DNA of 64,000 nucleotides from Blastocatellia bacterium (GTDB taxonomy: Bacteria > Acidobacteriota > Blastocatellia > Chloracidobacteriales > JADJPF01), in assembly GCA_025057015.1 (NCBI GenBank), contig JANWYG010000010.1, positions 404,506-468,505 of the forward strand, given 5' to 3'. A program made the position numbers and the translations under genes. A model generated the notes under the pieces. That model saw only the letters and a program-made list of their open reading frames with translations, did not search any database and was not told where the DNA came from. Of this stretch, positions 4,838 to 10,883 are shown in pieces (positions within the stretch are counted from its first letter, which is position 1; the number at the start of each line of letters is the position of its first letter).

Positions 4838-4875
4838 ATAATTCAAACAGACTAGGTTTTTTCAGGGAACGTGTG

Positions 4876-6225
4876 ATGGGCATTAGGACTTCGGTAGTTG
4901 GAATATCTGACATAGGTAAGCACAGAAAGAAGAATGAGGATTCGATATTGCTGGTAGATTTGGAGACGGGTACCGTAATGGATGGCTACAGCATGCTTGA
5001 GAGGGATCATGTGCAGAACAGGATACTGTTTGTTGTGTCTGACGGGATGGGGGGGTATGACGGAGGCGAGGTAGCCAGTAAGATGACGGTAGAGACGATA
5101 GTTAGGGAGCTAAGGCGTTTGCCAAAGCAGCTGTCGCCGCCAAGTAGGTTAGAAGCGGCTATAGAGGAGGCAAACTATAGGCTCTGGAAGTATAGGAGTG
5201 CTTATGGCTCTAGTGTGAAGATGGGAGCTACGGCTACTGCAGTACTAGTAGAGGGAGACAGGATATATATAGCAGACGTAGGTGATTCGCGGGCATTTAT
5301 AGTCAGGGAAGGAAGAATTAAGCAGTTAACAACCGATCAGACTTTGACGCAGATGTTAGTGCAGGCAGGAGCGCTTACCGAAGAAGAGGCTGGAAGGCGG
5401 AAAAGCGTACTGCTGCAGGCAATAGGTAGCAATGAATATTTGCAGATACCTGTATCGGCGTTGCAGCTTCAGCGAGGCGATATTTTGGTGCTATGTACTG
5501 ACGGACTGACGACAAAGGTTAAGAACAGGGAGATAATGAACATAGTTCGGAACGAGTCAAGTTTAGAGTCAGCAGCTAAAAAGCTTGTCTGTTTGGCAAA
5601 CGAGCGTGGGGGGGATGACAATATTTCTATAATTTTGGCCAGGTTTGAGGGAGATGAGCTTCAGGAGAAGATAGAAGCTGAGACCATAACTAAGCAGATA
5701 GAGGTCTACGCTAGTTATGATCCTTCGCAGAGTGCTGAAGCAAAACCGAGGCGAGAAGTTAGGGCTGCTACTTTTGAGGATTGGCTGAGGACTGCTGTTG
5801 TCAGCAGGTTTTGTCAGACACCGCAGCAGGTGCAGCAGCTTTTCGGATTAGGAAGTTTTGGAGACTATGTAGTCTTTCGGAAAGGCGACTATTTATTTCC
5901 TAGCGAGGAGCAAAGTGACCATTATTGGCTGGTTTGTGGCAAGTACAGGGTGCTTTACAGCGACTCGGGTAACTCTTTCGAGAATTATTGTTTTTTTGTT
6001 GCGCCTACTGATCATAGAACCGATGCGGAGATTCAGCAAGGAGAGGTAATGGTCAGGGTTAGGAGGCAGTTTTTTATAAATACTTTGGCGATGTTAGGAA
6101 GCTACAGGAAGGCTATTCGGTGTGAAGATGACGAAAACGCTATGATACGTGTCCCGTACAATCTCTACTGTGAGCTAGCTAAGATACTTGGCAAAAGTTA
6201 CGTGAATCTTCTCAGCCGGTCTTAA
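4876..6225 (+). CDS. PP2C-family Ser/Thr phosphatase with a CNBD-like C-terminal domain
   Basis: Residues 1 to about 250 carry the PP2C metal-site motifs: KNEDS, SDGMGGYDGGEVAS, GATATAVL, ADVGDSRAF, LCTDGLT and GGDDNIS. This is a Mn/Mg-dependent phosphoprotein phosphatase, expected to counter Ser/Thr kinases such as the one at 30-31.4 kb. After a linker, the last 150 or so residues look like a cyclic-nucleotide-binding beta-roll: a GDYVVFRKGDYLF segment, a WLVCGK turn, then a segment with MLGSYRKAIRCEDD and a final helix. The phosphate-binding cassette of true cNMP binders is not obvious. Start: GTG (4873) and ATG (4876) are adjacent; AGGGA 7 nt upstream favours the ATG. The extra domain is the unusual part and is an inference. 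Confidence 0.88.
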   Translation: MGIRTSVVGISDIGKHRKKNEDSILLVDLETGTVMDGYSMLERDHVQNRILFVVSDGMGGYDGGEVASKMTVETIVRELRRLPKQLSPPSRLEAAIEEANYRLWKYRSAYGSSVKMGATATAVLVEGDRIYIADVGDSRAFIVREGRIKQLTTDQTLTQMLVQAGALTEEEAGRRKSVLLQAIGSNEYLQIPVSALQLQRGDILVLCTDGLTTKVKNREIMNIVRNESSLESAAKKLVCLANERGGDDNISIILARFEGDELQEKIEAETITKQIEVYASYDPSQSAEAKPRREVRAATFEDWLRTAVVSRFCQTPQQVQQLFGLGSFGDYVVFRKGDYLFPSEEQSDHYWLVCGKYRVLYSDSGNSFENYCFFVAPTDHRTDAEIQQGEVMVRVRRQFFINTLAMLGSYRKAIRCEDDENAMIRVPYNLYCELAKILGKSYVNLLSRS

Positions 6226-6260
6226 ATAAAGGCCGTAGCTCTGTACTGGACTACGGCCTA
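6220..6260 (-). terminator. Rho-independent terminator for the beta-propeller gene
   Basis: A 9-bp stem (AGGCCGTAG at 6230-6238 with CTACGGCCT at 6251-6259) and a 12-nt loop lie between two convergent genes. Read on the minus strand the stem is followed by TTTATTTA, so it suits the gene ending at 6288; it may slow plus-strand transcription as well. Confidence 0.7.
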
Positions 6261-6287: not shown

Positions 6288-7535
6288 TTAATCTTTAGCG
6301 TCTATCAACTCTATGGAGTTAGCATGGGTAACCGCTATTTTGGCTTGTAACTCGTTGTAATTCATAGCCAGCACCTTATCTAGCTCGTATCTAAGTTTCT
6401 GGTTAGCTGAGTTTATGTACAGTTGGAATAGCTTACCAGAGCTAGTGCATAGATAGGCGAATTTCCCGTTAGAAGACGGGAAAAAGCCTGCTAGGGTTTC
6501 GCCGAAGGAGATTTCGATAGGCTTTCCAGCTTCGATCGGTACAAGGCTGATATGTCCAGGTCTTTGGATATGCCCTGGCCTTTGGATATGTCCAGGCCTC
6601 TGGATATGCCCTGGCCTTTGAATGTAGAGTAGGTTACTTCGTTTGTTTATCTTGGTATGAACGGGAAGATCTAAGGCAATGTTCAAGTCGTCTTCGTAGA
6701 GTGCCCTGTTGTTGTATCTGAAGACAACCATGCCAGAGGTTATAGAAAAGCCTATGACTGATCCTGACTTGGACGAAGTGACATAAACCGTATCGCCATT
6801 GGGACTGAAGGCAACGCTGGAGTCATATCCGATTTTGTCTTGCGGTTTAAGATATAGCTGACTGAGGAAGTTCAAATAGCCGTTATCTGCTATCTCGTAT
6901 ATGAGTAGACGATCGCCTTCAGGATGCCTACGGACGACGGCTAAACGATTGATGCTTTCGTCGTAAGAAATGCCTACTAGTAGGTTGTCCCGAGCAAGGG
7001 ACGCCTCACTAATTATGTCGTCTCTGTAGATAATCTGCCCGTTAGCTGTGGAAAAGACCACAAGCGAGGCCTTGTTAGAATATATGCCAAATTTACCGTC
7101 TGCGGAGATGACTACCGCGTTTGGTATAGTTTCTTCTCTGTCAGTTGGAACTCTTATAGCAAGCGAAACTCGCCCGTTTTCGTCAAACTTGCCGTCGGCA
7201 TTTACACGCACTATGATAAAAGCTGCTTCGTCTGGGACTGTTGCTTTGGTGCTGATTACAAGTATGTTGTTACTTATGGTCAGCTTAGAAGGATAAATCC
7301 CAGTTGGGAAAGTGTCCAGAGTAGAAACTATACTACCAGTAGAGACATCGAAGCTGTAAAGGTGATGGCCAGCAGACCCGTCATCTTTGTTGTAAGCTGC
7401 TACTAATCCAAAGCGTCCATCTTTTGTAAAGACTACATTGTTGTCAGTACTGAGGTTGTCAGGTAAGAAGACAGTCTGTGCCGGCACCTTTAGTCCGAAT
7501 ACGAACAATGCTATTGCGAGAATGATTCTTTGCAT
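6288..7535 (-). CDS. Exported beta-propeller-like protein with an IQRPGH hexapeptide repeat
   Basis: The N-terminus MQRIILAIALFVFGLKVPAQ is a Sec signal peptide. The mature part has WD/YncE-like strands repeated about every 45 residues (GRFGLVAAYN, GKFGIYSNK, GDTVYVTSS, GKFAYLCTS), so a secreted or periplasmic propeller is likely. Near residues 305-330 the fold is interrupted by four perfect IQRPGH units. The small exported peptide encoded just upstream also ends in PGH-containing motifs. ATG start with GAGGGT 4 nt upstream. No catalytic residues are recognisable; a binding or scaffold role is a guess. A hairpin terminator follows the stop. Confidence 0.7.
   Translation of the reverse strand: MQRIILAIALFVFGLKVPAQTVFLPDNLSTDNNVVFTKDGRFGLVAAYNKDDGSAGHHLYSFDVSTGSIVSTLDTFPTGIYPSKLTISNNILVISTKATVPDEAAFIIVRVNADGKFDENGRVSLAIRVPTDREETIPNAVVISADGKFGIYSNKASLVVFSTANGQIIYRDDIISEASLARDNLLVGISYDESINRLAVVRRHPEGDRLLIYEIADNGYLNFLSQLYLKPQDKIGYDSSVAFSPNGDTVYVTSSKSGSVIGFSITSGMVVFRYNNRALYEDDLNIALDLPVHTKINKRSNLLYIQRPGHIQRPGHIQRPGHIQRPGHISLVPIEAGKPIEISFGETLAGFFPSSNGKFAYLCTSSGKLFQLYINSANQKLRYELDKVLAMNYNELQAKIAVTHANSIELIDAKD
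6551..6622 (-). repeat. Four in-frame 18-bp tandem units encoding IQRPGH
   Basis: Units at 6551-6568, 6569-6586, 6587-6604 and 6605-6622 have the form TATGyCCwGGyCTyTGGA. They alternate at a few positions (TCCAGG in units 1 and 3, CCCTGG in units 2 and 4) but keep the same hexapeptide. That suggests duplication of a 36-bp pair and selection on the protein. Confidence 0.9.
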
Positions 7536-7554
7536 CAGTACCCTCTAGATGCAG

Positions 7555-7674
7555 TCAAGCTTTGTGGCCCGGTTTTACTATCTTACCTGAGCGTGTGCCA
7601 TGACCTGGCTTAGTGATTGATGCCATGCCTACTACTACAACTGCTAGAAGAAGCGTCGTAAGGATCTTTCGCAT
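7555..7674 (-). CDS. Small exported peptide (39 aa) with PGH motifs
   Basis: This short ORF starts at ATG 7674 with an AGGT Shine-Dalgarno (CGAGGTCAAC-ATG) and encodes a lysine/arginine start, a hydrophobic stretch LLLAVVVVGMA and a basic tail containing TKPGHG and VKPGHK. It has the layout of a signal peptide plus an 18-20 residue mature peptide. It ends 19 nt before the beta-propeller start, so the two are very likely one operon. The PGH triplet recurs four times in that propeller, which suggests a functional link such as binding, anchoring or a shared ligand. I do not recognise the family. Confidence 0.6.
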   Translation of the reverse strand: MRKILTTLLLAVVVVGMASITKPGHGTRSGKIVKPGHKA

Positions 7675-7761
7675 GTTGACCTCGGAACTTAATATATGCA
7701 AGTTAAGGCTAAAACATTGGTTCTATTTTAGTCAAGTGATTTATTCTAGTTAGGTAGTCAG

Positions 7762-8073
7762 CTATTGCAGATCGTATTCTATAGCCTCGAGATACTCTTC
7801 TACCATAGAAGAATGGTTATGTTTGCGTGCAGCCTCAATTCCGGCTTCGTAGGCTTTCCGTGCTTGCTGTTTATCTCCAAGATTTAGGAATGCTTTAGCA
7901 AGGGTGCGATAGACTGCTCCTTCGTCTTCAGCCAGAGACAAGTAGGCGTTTATTTGTTCTATACAAGCTTGGTAGTTACCAGCTTTAAAATATTCATTGG
8001 CGAGTCCATATCTGATGAGTGGATCTTGTGGGTCGGTCTTCAGGAGTTCTTCTAGTGCTTGTAATCTGTTCAA
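7762..8073 (-). CDS. Small TPR protein
   Basis: It has about 103 residues with three helix-turn-helix pairs of TPR type (RYGLANEYFKAGNYQACIEQ; YRTLAKAFLNLGDKQQARKA). It should be a cytosolic protein-protein adaptor. The open frame reaches further upstream to 8148, but I choose TTG at 8073: it overlaps the TGA of the preceding gene as TTGA and has GGAGGT 4 nt upstream. This couples its translation to the 937-residue protein, suggesting the two act together. No signal peptide. Confidence 0.75.
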   Translation of the reverse strand: MNRLQALEELLKTDPQDPLIRYGLANEYFKAGNYQACIEQINAYLSLAEDEGAVYRTLAKAFLNLGDKQQARKAYEAGIEAARKHNHSSMVEEYLEAIEYDLQ

Positions 8074-10883
8074 TTTGACCTCCTTTTCAATAGGGCTGCC
8101 AGCAGTCGGCAGACAGCGTAAACTAGGCGGAACTTTTTTATTTTCCAACCGGGTATTTGCTGCAGTCCGGCAAATCTGCTGAGGCGTGACCGCATCAGTT
8201 CTTGTTCTTCTTCGGTGTAGTAGCTATAGCCTGAAGCGCTTTGTCGGCATCTTTCTTGGAGTATGGTCTCGAACTTGGTTATCAGATCGGCTGTCTTTCT
8301 TGGATCTTGAACTAAAAGGATAGCTTCTATGTGCCTGAGGCGCTTTGGCGAAGTTTCCACAGCTAGCAGGTCTTCTAGTACGTATGCCGGATTCGGATGC
8401 CAGTCAGTGATTTCTAGAGACACCTGCAAGTACTGTAATAGCTTCAGCGACAGCCTCAAAAGTTTGAGCTTGACAGTGCCCTGGTCGATGAATTCGCTTA
8501 GAAATGAGATCCTTTGTTCAAAAGCCTTCCTTTTTGTTTGCCCCATGCGGGGAGCATTGAGTTCAACCCAAAGTTTGAATTCTCCTATTAGCTCTCTGAT
8601 TTTCTCGATGCTACGAGTTTCAAGCAGTATAAATAACAGCTGTTCTAGTCTGAAGATAGTAGTTTCTGGATTTTTCCATTCCTGTATTATCCGGTGATCA
8701 GAAATATCCCAACTTTCTATCTGATCTAGTACTATGCCATAGGAGGATATGGCGATTGGATCGGATTGTTCTAATTCAGAAATCGACGTAGATAAAGACC
8801 GCTTCCACAGTTCTTTTTCTTCTTCGTTGAGGATGTAGAGTAAGTTTATGCGCTGCAGCAGGTTTTTTAGCAAAGTGATCAATGCATTGATTTCGGTCGA
8901 GCTTTGGACTTTCTGGGTCAGATCGCTTACTGCTCGGAGAGCCTGAAGTAACGCTGCTTTATCTTTAGTGTCAGCACAAATAGCGCTCGATAAAGCTTCC
9001 AAAGTGTAGTCAGATAGCTGTAGGTCGCTTTCCAGTAGAAAGGCACGTGTTTGAGCCATTTCTAGCGATAATGTAGCAGTAGTTGGTTTTGACTTTTCTT
9101 GCTCAAGTGGATCTGGACTTCCACTTTTATAAGGGTTGAAATTTGTAAGCGAATCGTGCAGCGATCGTAGAAATTTTAGAAATTGTTCTTTAAGATTTTC
9201 TTCAGGACGTTTTATTTTAGCTTCTAGCTTGAGATCGGTTGAAAGTAGTGTTGGGGCTTGCAGTTCAAAGAATGATAAGAATTGCTCGACAGCTTTCCTG
9301 TATATTTGCTCAAAGTGATACCTCTCTATGTCGTTTAAACTACGTCCTAGAAACAGTCGGCAGTAACTTTTTGAGCATTCCGAGACCATTTCTTCCCATC
9401 TGTTATAGTCTAAGTTCGAGGTAGAGCGCCCTTGGGCATAGTCATGGTCGAAGGCATTCCTCAGATTGTTAATAAAAAACAGCAGATCGGTCATGATTAT
9501 CGATATGAGGGCGTTTTCTACGATATCTAGCGCTTCTAAGGTTCGTTGTTTCAGGGCAAAGAAGAGCAGTTCCGAGAGCGAATTTTTCTGAGTAAGTAGG
9601 TCGCTAGATTCTGAAATTGGGATATTATTGCGCAAAGCGAAGTGTTTTGTGCCTAGGTCAAGTTGTTCTTTGGCATATACTTCACCGCCTTGTGCCTTTA
9701 CTAGAGTGCGGACAGCTTCGTAGCTGTAGAACGATAACTCGCATAGATCTGCGCAGCGTTTAAAGAAAAAGATCTTGCTACGCAGGCTGCGTTGCGAAGA
9801 TTGATACTCACGGCGGAAAATATCTACAAACCGGTCGAATGACTCATGTATGTTATTGTCAAAGATTGCTTTCAGTTTAGGCAAACATAGGCTGTAGAAA
9901 AAATCTATAAAAGTTTCCTCACTAGTGTTGAGCACTTTGCGAACAGTTTCTAAAAAATCCTCTATGAAAGAGATTATTACCTCTAAAGTTTGTCCCAAGT
10001 TATGGCTTATATATTCTGTCAAGATATAGGCTATGGGGTGATCTTCTGTATGTCCACGAATGAGGATGCTTGGGATATATTGCTTTTTGGCCATAGCCTC
10101 AAGAGTGTAGAGGACAGCGGACCGAAAGAGGCTTTCGCTATCTATTTTGTTCCATTTTCTGCCTGAGATAAGAATAGCGAGCAGACCAACTTCCCCTGAG
10201 CGTTCTACTAAGGCTGGGTCATCTATGAGGAAGCCTAGGAACTGAGCGTCAGCAGCTGTATATAGTGCTGTGCCTCGATCATCTTTCAACGCCGTAGTTT
10301 TAAGGTCCATGCCTATGCGTCTTGCTGACTTTTGAGGTATCAGGGGATGGTTAAGGATGGCCTGGATAATCTGGACCGTGTATTGTTCGACGAGTTCATC
10401 GAGTTCTTGTTCTGTGAGAACGGAGTTGTCAGCGTGGAAGTCCACTATGTCTTGCAAGTTCATTTCTACGGCAAATTCTGACACTAGGACGTCTTGCGGG
10501 AAGTTTTCCACGTACTTTTTGCAGTAAGGTAGGATAAGGCCTGCAACGCGCAGCTCAAGCTCTTGAGTATGAGCAGCCGGCTCGGGGAATGTTAGTAACT
10601 GTTTGAGTATCTTCTCTACCTCACGTTTTATCTCTGCTAGGTCTATTTGCTGCTTAAGAGCACTTCTTAGCTCTACTATGTCAAGCACAGCCGTCTTTTT
10701 TTCCTCACTAATCGGCTGTGTGGTGTGCTGTTCATACGATGCTGCAACGCCAAGACTAATGCCTAGCGATGCTAGTTTTTGCTGTAGCTCGCGCTCTATT
10801 TCTTCAGGAGTTTGTGGGCGAAAATCTGGTTGTTGCTTCAACGCTGTCTTTAGTAAGGGTTGTAATATACTAAATAATAGCAT
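8070..10883 (-). CDS. Large helical protein of unknown function
   Basis: 937 residues, almost wholly predicted helical from composition (rich in Leu, Glu, Lys), with no signal peptide, no P-loop and no metal-site motif that I can see. A polar linker (about residues 590-620, PYKSGSPDPLEQEKSK) separates two helical halves. The N-terminus is hydrophobic (MLLFSILQPLLKTALK) and the C-terminus is strongly basic (LLAALLKRRSN), which might allow membrane contact. It is translationally coupled to the TPR gene behind it and divergent from the CBS protein. I do not recognise the family; a scaffold role is possible but unproven. The start ATG lacks a clear Shine-Dalgarno. Confidence 0.7.
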   Translation of the reverse strand: MLLFSILQPLLKTALKQQPDFRPQTPEEIERELQQKLASLGISLGVAASYEQHTTQPISEEKKTAVLDIVELRSALKQQIDLAEIKREVEKILKQLLTFPEPAAHTQELELRVAGLILPYCKKYVENFPQDVLVSEFAVEMNLQDIVDFHADNSVLTEQELDELVEQYTVQIIQAILNHPLIPQKSARRIGMDLKTTALKDDRGTALYTAADAQFLGFLIDDPALVERSGEVGLLAILISGRKWNKIDSESLFRSAVLYTLEAMAKKQYIPSILIRGHTEDHPIAYILTEYISHNLGQTLEVIISFIEDFLETVRKVLNTSEETFIDFFYSLCLPKLKAIFDNNIHESFDRFVDIFRREYQSSQRSLRSKIFFFKRCADLCELSFYSYEAVRTLVKAQGGEVYAKEQLDLGTKHFALRNNIPISESSDLLTQKNSLSELLFFALKQRTLEALDIVENALISIIMTDLLFFINNLRNAFDHDYAQGRSTSNLDYNRWEEMVSECSKSYCRLFLGRSLNDIERYHFEQIYRKAVEQFLSFFELQAPTLLSTDLKLEAKIKRPEENLKEQFLKFLRSLHDSLTNFNPYKSGSPDPLEQEKSKPTTATLSLEMAQTRAFLLESDLQLSDYTLEALSSAICADTKDKAALLQALRAVSDLTQKVQSSTEINALITLLKNLLQRINLLYILNEEEKELWKRSLSTSISELEQSDPIAISSYGIVLDQIESWDISDHRIIQEWKNPETTIFRLEQLLFILLETRSIEKIRELIGEFKLWVELNAPRMGQTKRKAFEQRISFLSEFIDQGTVKLKLLRLSLKLLQYLQVSLEITDWHPNPAYVLEDLLAVETSPKRLRHIEAILLVQDPRKTADLITKFETILQERCRQSASGYSYYTEEEQELMRSRLSRFAGLQQIPGWKIKKFRLVYAVCRLLAALLKRRSN

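Follow-up and report, generated by a model that had tools for sequence, protein, structure and literature searches.

RRNPPA systems, such as Rap-Phr, PlcR-PapR, NprR-NprX and AimR-AimP, are the described systems closest to the locus presented here. Their propeptides are short and secreted and carry up to four identical or similar copies of the signal (PMC11343458). Phr105, for example, contains two identical ERPVGT sequences that are four residues apart, and the arginine at position 2 of the pheromone is bound by the TPR receptor (PMC11343458). The ligand and TPR-receptor genes are adjacent in these systems (PMC10075063).

The locus lies in a window of 64,000 nucleotides (the whole stretch of DNA that was analysed) from a 3.3 Mb Blastocatellia genome, whose order we take to include Chloracidobacterium-like genomes as well. 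On the minus strand, a 39-residue ORF (MRKILTTLLLAVVVVGMASITKPGHGTRSGKIVKPGHKA; 7555..7674, with its ATG at 7674 and its stop codon ending at 7555) is preceded at a distance of 5 nt by a Shine-Dalgarno-like GAGG (7680..7683, minus strand). A signal-peptide-like N-terminus is followed by a mature tail containing ITKPGH and IVKPGH, and from the composition of the N-terminus the product is predicted to be a secreted peptide. After a gap of 19 nt, the gene for a predicted secreted beta-propeller of 415 residues begins on the same strand (6288..7535, with its ATG at 7535); it has its own GAGGG ahead of the start codon, and its product has a signal peptide. Four identical tandem copies of IQRPGH occupy residues 305-328 (6552..6623, minus strand), and TRF places the 18-bp array at 6549-6620. 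The original prediction had pointed to this pair, with two KPGH motifs in the ORF and four RPGH motifs in the propeller, and its coordinates were confirmed. Among the codons of the four IQRPGH copies, 17 differences are synonymous and none is nonsynonymous. A repeat element acting at the DNA level was considered and rejected: outside the array, its own genome contains no copy of the 18-mer except one match with three mismatches, and the copies differ synonymously.

An AlphaFold2 model of the propeller, based on five sequences (pLDDT 83, pTM 0.82), has the radial array of four-stranded blades of a beta-propeller, and Foldseek searches of the PDB match generic WD40/YVTN propellers. The protein belongs to no named family and falls below all Pfam and NCBIfam cut-offs; the best Pfam match is Lactonase, at 15.2 against 21.7 bits, and the NCBIfam model TIGR02276 scores 9.7 against a cut-off of 27.85. 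In the model, the array is a flexible, low-confidence loop between strands 302-307 and 328-333, two neighboring strands of a single blade. Propellers often bind ligands on the face that carries their B-C loops, and, going by the usual topology, the array would be such a loop.

A PP2C-type phosphatase gene (4873..6225, plus strand) converges on the propeller gene, and a terminator-like inverted repeat read from the sequence (GGCCGTAG/CTACGGCC with a 12-nt loop; 6231..6258) lies between them. The convergent phosphatase is also found in G002 and G003 (51% identity) and is kept across two genera, at L067 and L068 as in the window. On the other side of the pair, a 937-residue protein (8070-10883, minus strand) that overlaps a small TPR gene (7762-8148) has no Pfam or NCBIfam match above cut-off and is not kept beside other pairs.

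The peptide-propeller pair is found at seven loci in five related Blastocatellia genomes: the window, one locus each in G002 and G003, and two each in G004 and G005. The relatives named in the genome scan include the Blastocatellia metagenome-assembled genomes SSF51 and nzgw73 and the Acidobacteria genome NC_groundwater_1571, and the pair-bearing group consists of soil and water Acidobacteria. At every locus, the small ORF is on the same strand as the propeller gene and ends shortly upstream of it; in one of the two G004 loci (contig C102), it overlaps the longest possible propeller reading frame. The seven ORFs encode 39-73 residues with variable signal peptides, and all of them keep the initiator ATG, a hydrophobic N-terminus and two or three copies of I[AVT][KR]PGH. 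Six are preceded by GAGG or AGAGG, and the seventh (L069) by a weaker AGAGAG. In the propeller family as a whole (n=21), a peptide ORF is directly upstream of all seven propellers with at least three PGH hexapeptides and was detected beside none of the other 14, a split with a probability of 1/C(21,7)=8.6e-6 if kinship is ignored; none was found near the propellers with ISRPFG or ISRPLG, where one was looked for.

The mature part of the peptide has changed little between G002 and G003 (dN 0.06, dS 1.41; dN/dS about 0.04), compared with dN 0.30 and dS 0.51 for the signal part, and among the 30 motif codons of the G004 and G005 orthologues there are 16 synonymous and no nonsynonymous differences. 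By these sequence measures, purifying selection acts on the mature peptide. When 58 genomes were searched with a profile built from the seven small ORFs (E<1e-5), only these ORFs and the propellers' PGH arrays were recovered, the next match having E=0.002. About 85,000 species genomes were also scanned for three PGH motifs spaced 18 nt apart; of the 41 loci obtained, those outside Blastocatellia are simple repeats, other proteins or other reading frames, and pairs occur in Blastocatellia only. Matches in viral contigs are short or unrelated frames, and the other IxKPGH and IxRPGH matches inspected in G000, G002, G004 and G005 are short non-coding or antisense frames. Of 15 places examined for a third gene with the PGH word, 13 carry it, and in each the frame is short, alternative or doubtful. 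As far as comparison of genomes can tell, peptide and propeller form a genuine pair that is conserved and selected, beyond what chance would give. At the level of sequence, neither of the two outcomes that might have overturned the original idea, a small ORF that is not conserved or homologous propellers that lack PGH, was encountered.

Peptide and propeller agree in the basic residue of the word (K/K or R/R) at six of the seven loci, the window being the exception with K in the peptide and R in the propeller, and G004 and G005 each have one K/K and one R/R locus. Position 2 of the word is not equal between the partners. In G003 (L104, contig C394), the five IQKPGH copies are identical at the DNA level, and in its sister species G002 (L091, contig C34) they have diverged synonymously; the contrast suggests recent homogenization or renewal of the array in one of the two.

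Profile searches of 158 genomes of the class and 396 of the phylum confine the propeller family to part of Blastocatellia. Beyond the 21 propellers counted there are fragments, such as L018/L078, with its one copy at a contig end. In each of the 21, one loop carries, always at the same position, two or more hexapeptides that fit [IVL]-x-[KR]-P-x-x and match each other exactly. Fourteen variants of this word occur (IQRPGH, IQKPGH, INRPGH, LVRPGH, ISRPFG, ISRPLG, ISRPGN, ITRPAN, IHRPLN, IRRPIF, VKRPIF, IRRPTN, ISRPIN and VRRPTL); [KR]-P is constant across them, and all copies change together from one paralogue to the next. Mean word identity is 0.51 between proteins and 1.0 within them, and when copies were dealt at random in 20,000 trials, at most seven of the 21 proteins were uniform, compared with the 21 observed. 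Within the 14 proteins examined, the codons of the copies show 125 synonymous differences and no nonsynonymous ones, G003 C394 being the exception in that its copies do not differ at all. Unrelated linkers of 5-9 residues separate the copies in six of the seven members of family f3, and in the seventh (G014) one of three copies is set off in this way, so recent tandem slippage is not the whole explanation. The identical copies within each protein, the paralogue-specific words, the drifting codons and the unlike linkers together point to a recognition word that is the same in every copy. The Chloracidobacterium-like genome G007 (L073:5485-7718, contig C1) also contains long protein-like repeats in tandem (GFQPTNPGHPRIGRVTYGQPPHPPDWNPHRRVATAEFS...), which have nothing to do with the PGH pairs.

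Six of the eight distant relatives, which make up families f3 and f6, carry the motif on the C-terminal tail of the propeller itself. These tails read SIRRPSNVKR, AIRRPCNIKR, GIRRPCGLTGR, SIRRPCNLGLH, TIRRPCNILR and SISRPGGRSDGH, with the words IRRPSN, IRRPCN (three times), IRRPCG and ISRPGG; of the other two relatives, the tail of G044 is degenerate (MPRPYTFGKQ) and G033 has none. In the eight genomes searched, IRRPCN tails are restricted to the propeller family. The idea that IRRPCN is a general sorting tail was discarded, as the other matches in these genomes are short frames that do not look like coding sequence. Array words differ between proteins, the tail word hardly at all, and the two do not covary, which argues against a simple lock between a tail and its own array. 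Together with the pairing at seven loci and the selection on the mature peptide, these tails give good support to the original expectation that the shared motif has a common reason. A separate observation was made in G044 (contig C551), in which a 91-residue secreted-type ORF (L269:7074-7349, plus strand) whose mature part contains three cysteines terminates in FTYIKRPIL some 490 nt upstream of the propeller with the VKRPIF array and the degenerate tail. This single case is possibly an independent version of the motif in trans, or chance.

At 16 of the 21 loci, the propeller gene adjoins a gene for an HTH-TPR-sigma54 AAA-Fis activator (L064, L065, L066, L069, L072, L077, L079-L081 and L269-L275). 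The activators are 979-1270 residues long and contain TPRs, a sigma54-interacting AAA domain and a Fis-type HTH; an N-terminal HTH is present in three of the four scanned with Pfam, and the TPR part matches PINS, a peptide-binding TPR protein. In L064, L079, L080 and L081, the propeller gene is directly 5' of the activator gene on the same strand, with a 4-bp overlap in L064. Sigma54-like -24/-12 sites (GGCATAG-N4-TGC-like), called by likeness to the pattern and not against a chance rate, precede the propellers of L269, L270, L273, L274, L275 and L065, and a similar site (TGGCACGCAATATGC) lies between the divergent activator and small ORF of L069. Among the peptide loci, an adjacent activator is found at two of seven (L069 and L072, both divergent); it is absent at the window, G002 C34, G004 C102 and G005 C55, and the G003 contig is too short to tell. 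A sigma70 scan upstream of the small ORF in the window gave nothing above chance.

We suggest that the peptide and propeller may belong to a peptide-signalling or surface-assembly system. Our preferred reading, which is tentative, is that a cognate receptor recognizes the hexapeptide as a word present in several copies; the TPR activator is the most likely receptor, and the logic would be RRNPP-like. The secreted propeller would expose the word in a loop of one blade. Extra copies would come from the small ORF, as a free secreted peptide, in the PGH clade, and an extra copy from the C-terminal tail of the propeller in the distant relatives. The word would be read by a cognate peptide receptor, for which the adjacent activator is the best candidate, and the activator would drive the gene for its own ligand, closing a secreted-peptide signalling loop. 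We infer that the products are secreted and cut into free peptides, which would then be taken up and bound by the TPRs. In the window, where no activator is adjacent, the receptor would be elsewhere or lost. The full form of this proposal, in which a paralogue-specific word on the propeller loop and a Phr-like peptide are both read by an activator that drives the propeller gene, and which would amount to peptide communication in Acidobacteriota, is rather doubtful.

The pairing, the within-protein identity, the paralogue-specific words, the activator adjacency and the sigma54-like sites before several propellers favor signalling, and, by analogy, an x-R-P-x-x-x word would accommodate the invariant [KR]-P. 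Against it stand the five of seven peptide loci, the window included, with no adjacent activator (one of them on the short G003 contig), the mismatch at position 2 between peptide and propeller, the K and R of the window, and tails (IRRPCN) that do not track the array. To our knowledge, there is no precedent for signal copies in a propeller loop, and RRNPPA systems are known from Bacillota, whereas the hosts here are of the Gram-negative type. The activator could also merely regulate the propeller as an output.

Extracellular docking or assembly is the main alternative, and we consider it only slightly less likely. Here the peptide or the C-terminal tail would associate with the hexapeptide loop of the propeller, or both would bind one envelope partner, and the small ORF would provide in trans what the distant relatives hold in cis. 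The tail in cis and the peptide in trans amount to fusion-type evidence of related roles, and the restriction of the IRRPCN tails to the propeller family is consistent with this. The spacing of the two genes resembles co-transcription, identical copies fit like-with-like stacking or a multivalent partner, and the modelled array loop is flexible. However, when a peptide-propeller fusion (L104, with its TAA read as Gln) was modelled in AlphaFold2, the peptide was left unplaced, with pLDDT <30, a result of little weight because the alignment had only five rows. The absence of covariation between tail and array words, and of a third motif-bearing gene among the places examined, also count against docking.

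The original prediction had offered histidine-based metal binding or a shared modification site. The histidine is invariant in peptide and propeller throughout the PGH clade; however, the words of 12 of the 21 propellers lack it (ISRPFG, ISRPLG, ISRPGN, ITRPAN, IRRPTN and others), and no modification enzyme is conserved beside the pairs in the neighborhoods compared. Because the histidine is confined to the PGH clade, metal binding is not the function of the family as a whole; it is possible for that clade alone, and we regard this group of explanations as improbable.

Still less probable is a regulatory leader, in which the nascent chain of the small ORF would stall the ribosome and control the propeller in the manner of SecM or RAPP peptides. 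The ORF is a first cistron with an exported-type nascent chain and an Arg/Lys-Pro motif near its end, and arrest peptides of such a layout exist (PMC7897499, PMC10951233). However, the motif recurs three to five times within the propeller, IVKPGH differs from RAPP/RAGP, the known cases precede protein-localization genes, and RNA structure around the propeller start is ordinary at six of the seven loci, L069 being the exception. That the small ORF is a decayed partial duplicate or a functionless chance ORF, as its resemblance to a signal peptide plus array minus the propeller might suggest, is scarcely credible given seven conserved loci, the retained Shine-Dalgarno sequences and the low dN/dS of the mature part.

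Whether the word serves signalling, as we prefer, or assembly, identical copies held at the protein level while their codons drift are an unusual evolutionary mark, one expected of specificity keys such as signals and docking codes. Given a free peptide with the word of its propeller, and the word-bearing tails, synthetic peptides of 6-20 residues would allow the function to be tested directly. If signalling is correct, RRNPP-like logic extends to a Gram-negative-type phylum with a sigma54 output.

Taken singly, the parts are ordinary. For their combination, a secreted propeller with a hexapeptide word and a separate peptide with the same word, a limited literature search found no described counterpart and, for the motif, only unrelated acronyms; this agrees with the initial impression that nothing like it had been described. 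SecM, VemP and ApdP share a small exported ORF directly 5' of the gene for an exported protein, but here the motif is [KR]PGH and is repeated in the downstream product, which is no localization factor, and there is neither a RAPP/RAGP-like motif nor conserved RNA structure. Histidine metal repeats would be conserved family-wide, which these are not. Secreted YVTN/WD40-like propellers (YncE, the S-layer YVTN protein 1l0q) have the same fold according to AlphaFold2 and Foldseek, whereas the propellers described here have identical hexapeptides in one loop and a partner peptide or motif tail. With RRNPPA systems, the pair shares a short secreted propeptide (39-73 residues, within the 10-100 of that group, with a Sec-type signal judged by composition), repeated hexapeptides, a TPR protein encoded beside the ligand, although at only two of seven peptide loci (L069 and L072), and an arginine that is second in the x-R-x-x-x-x word. 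It differs in the additional copies in a secreted propeller loop, in its acidobacterial host and in the neighboring protein, which is a sigma54 activator of about 979-1270 residues with TPRs, AAA and Fis domains, and not a receptor of 250-500. Because the window has no receptor gene next to the pair, and because the activator differs in size and domains, the system is not filed under RRNPPA; by analogy, it may work like one.
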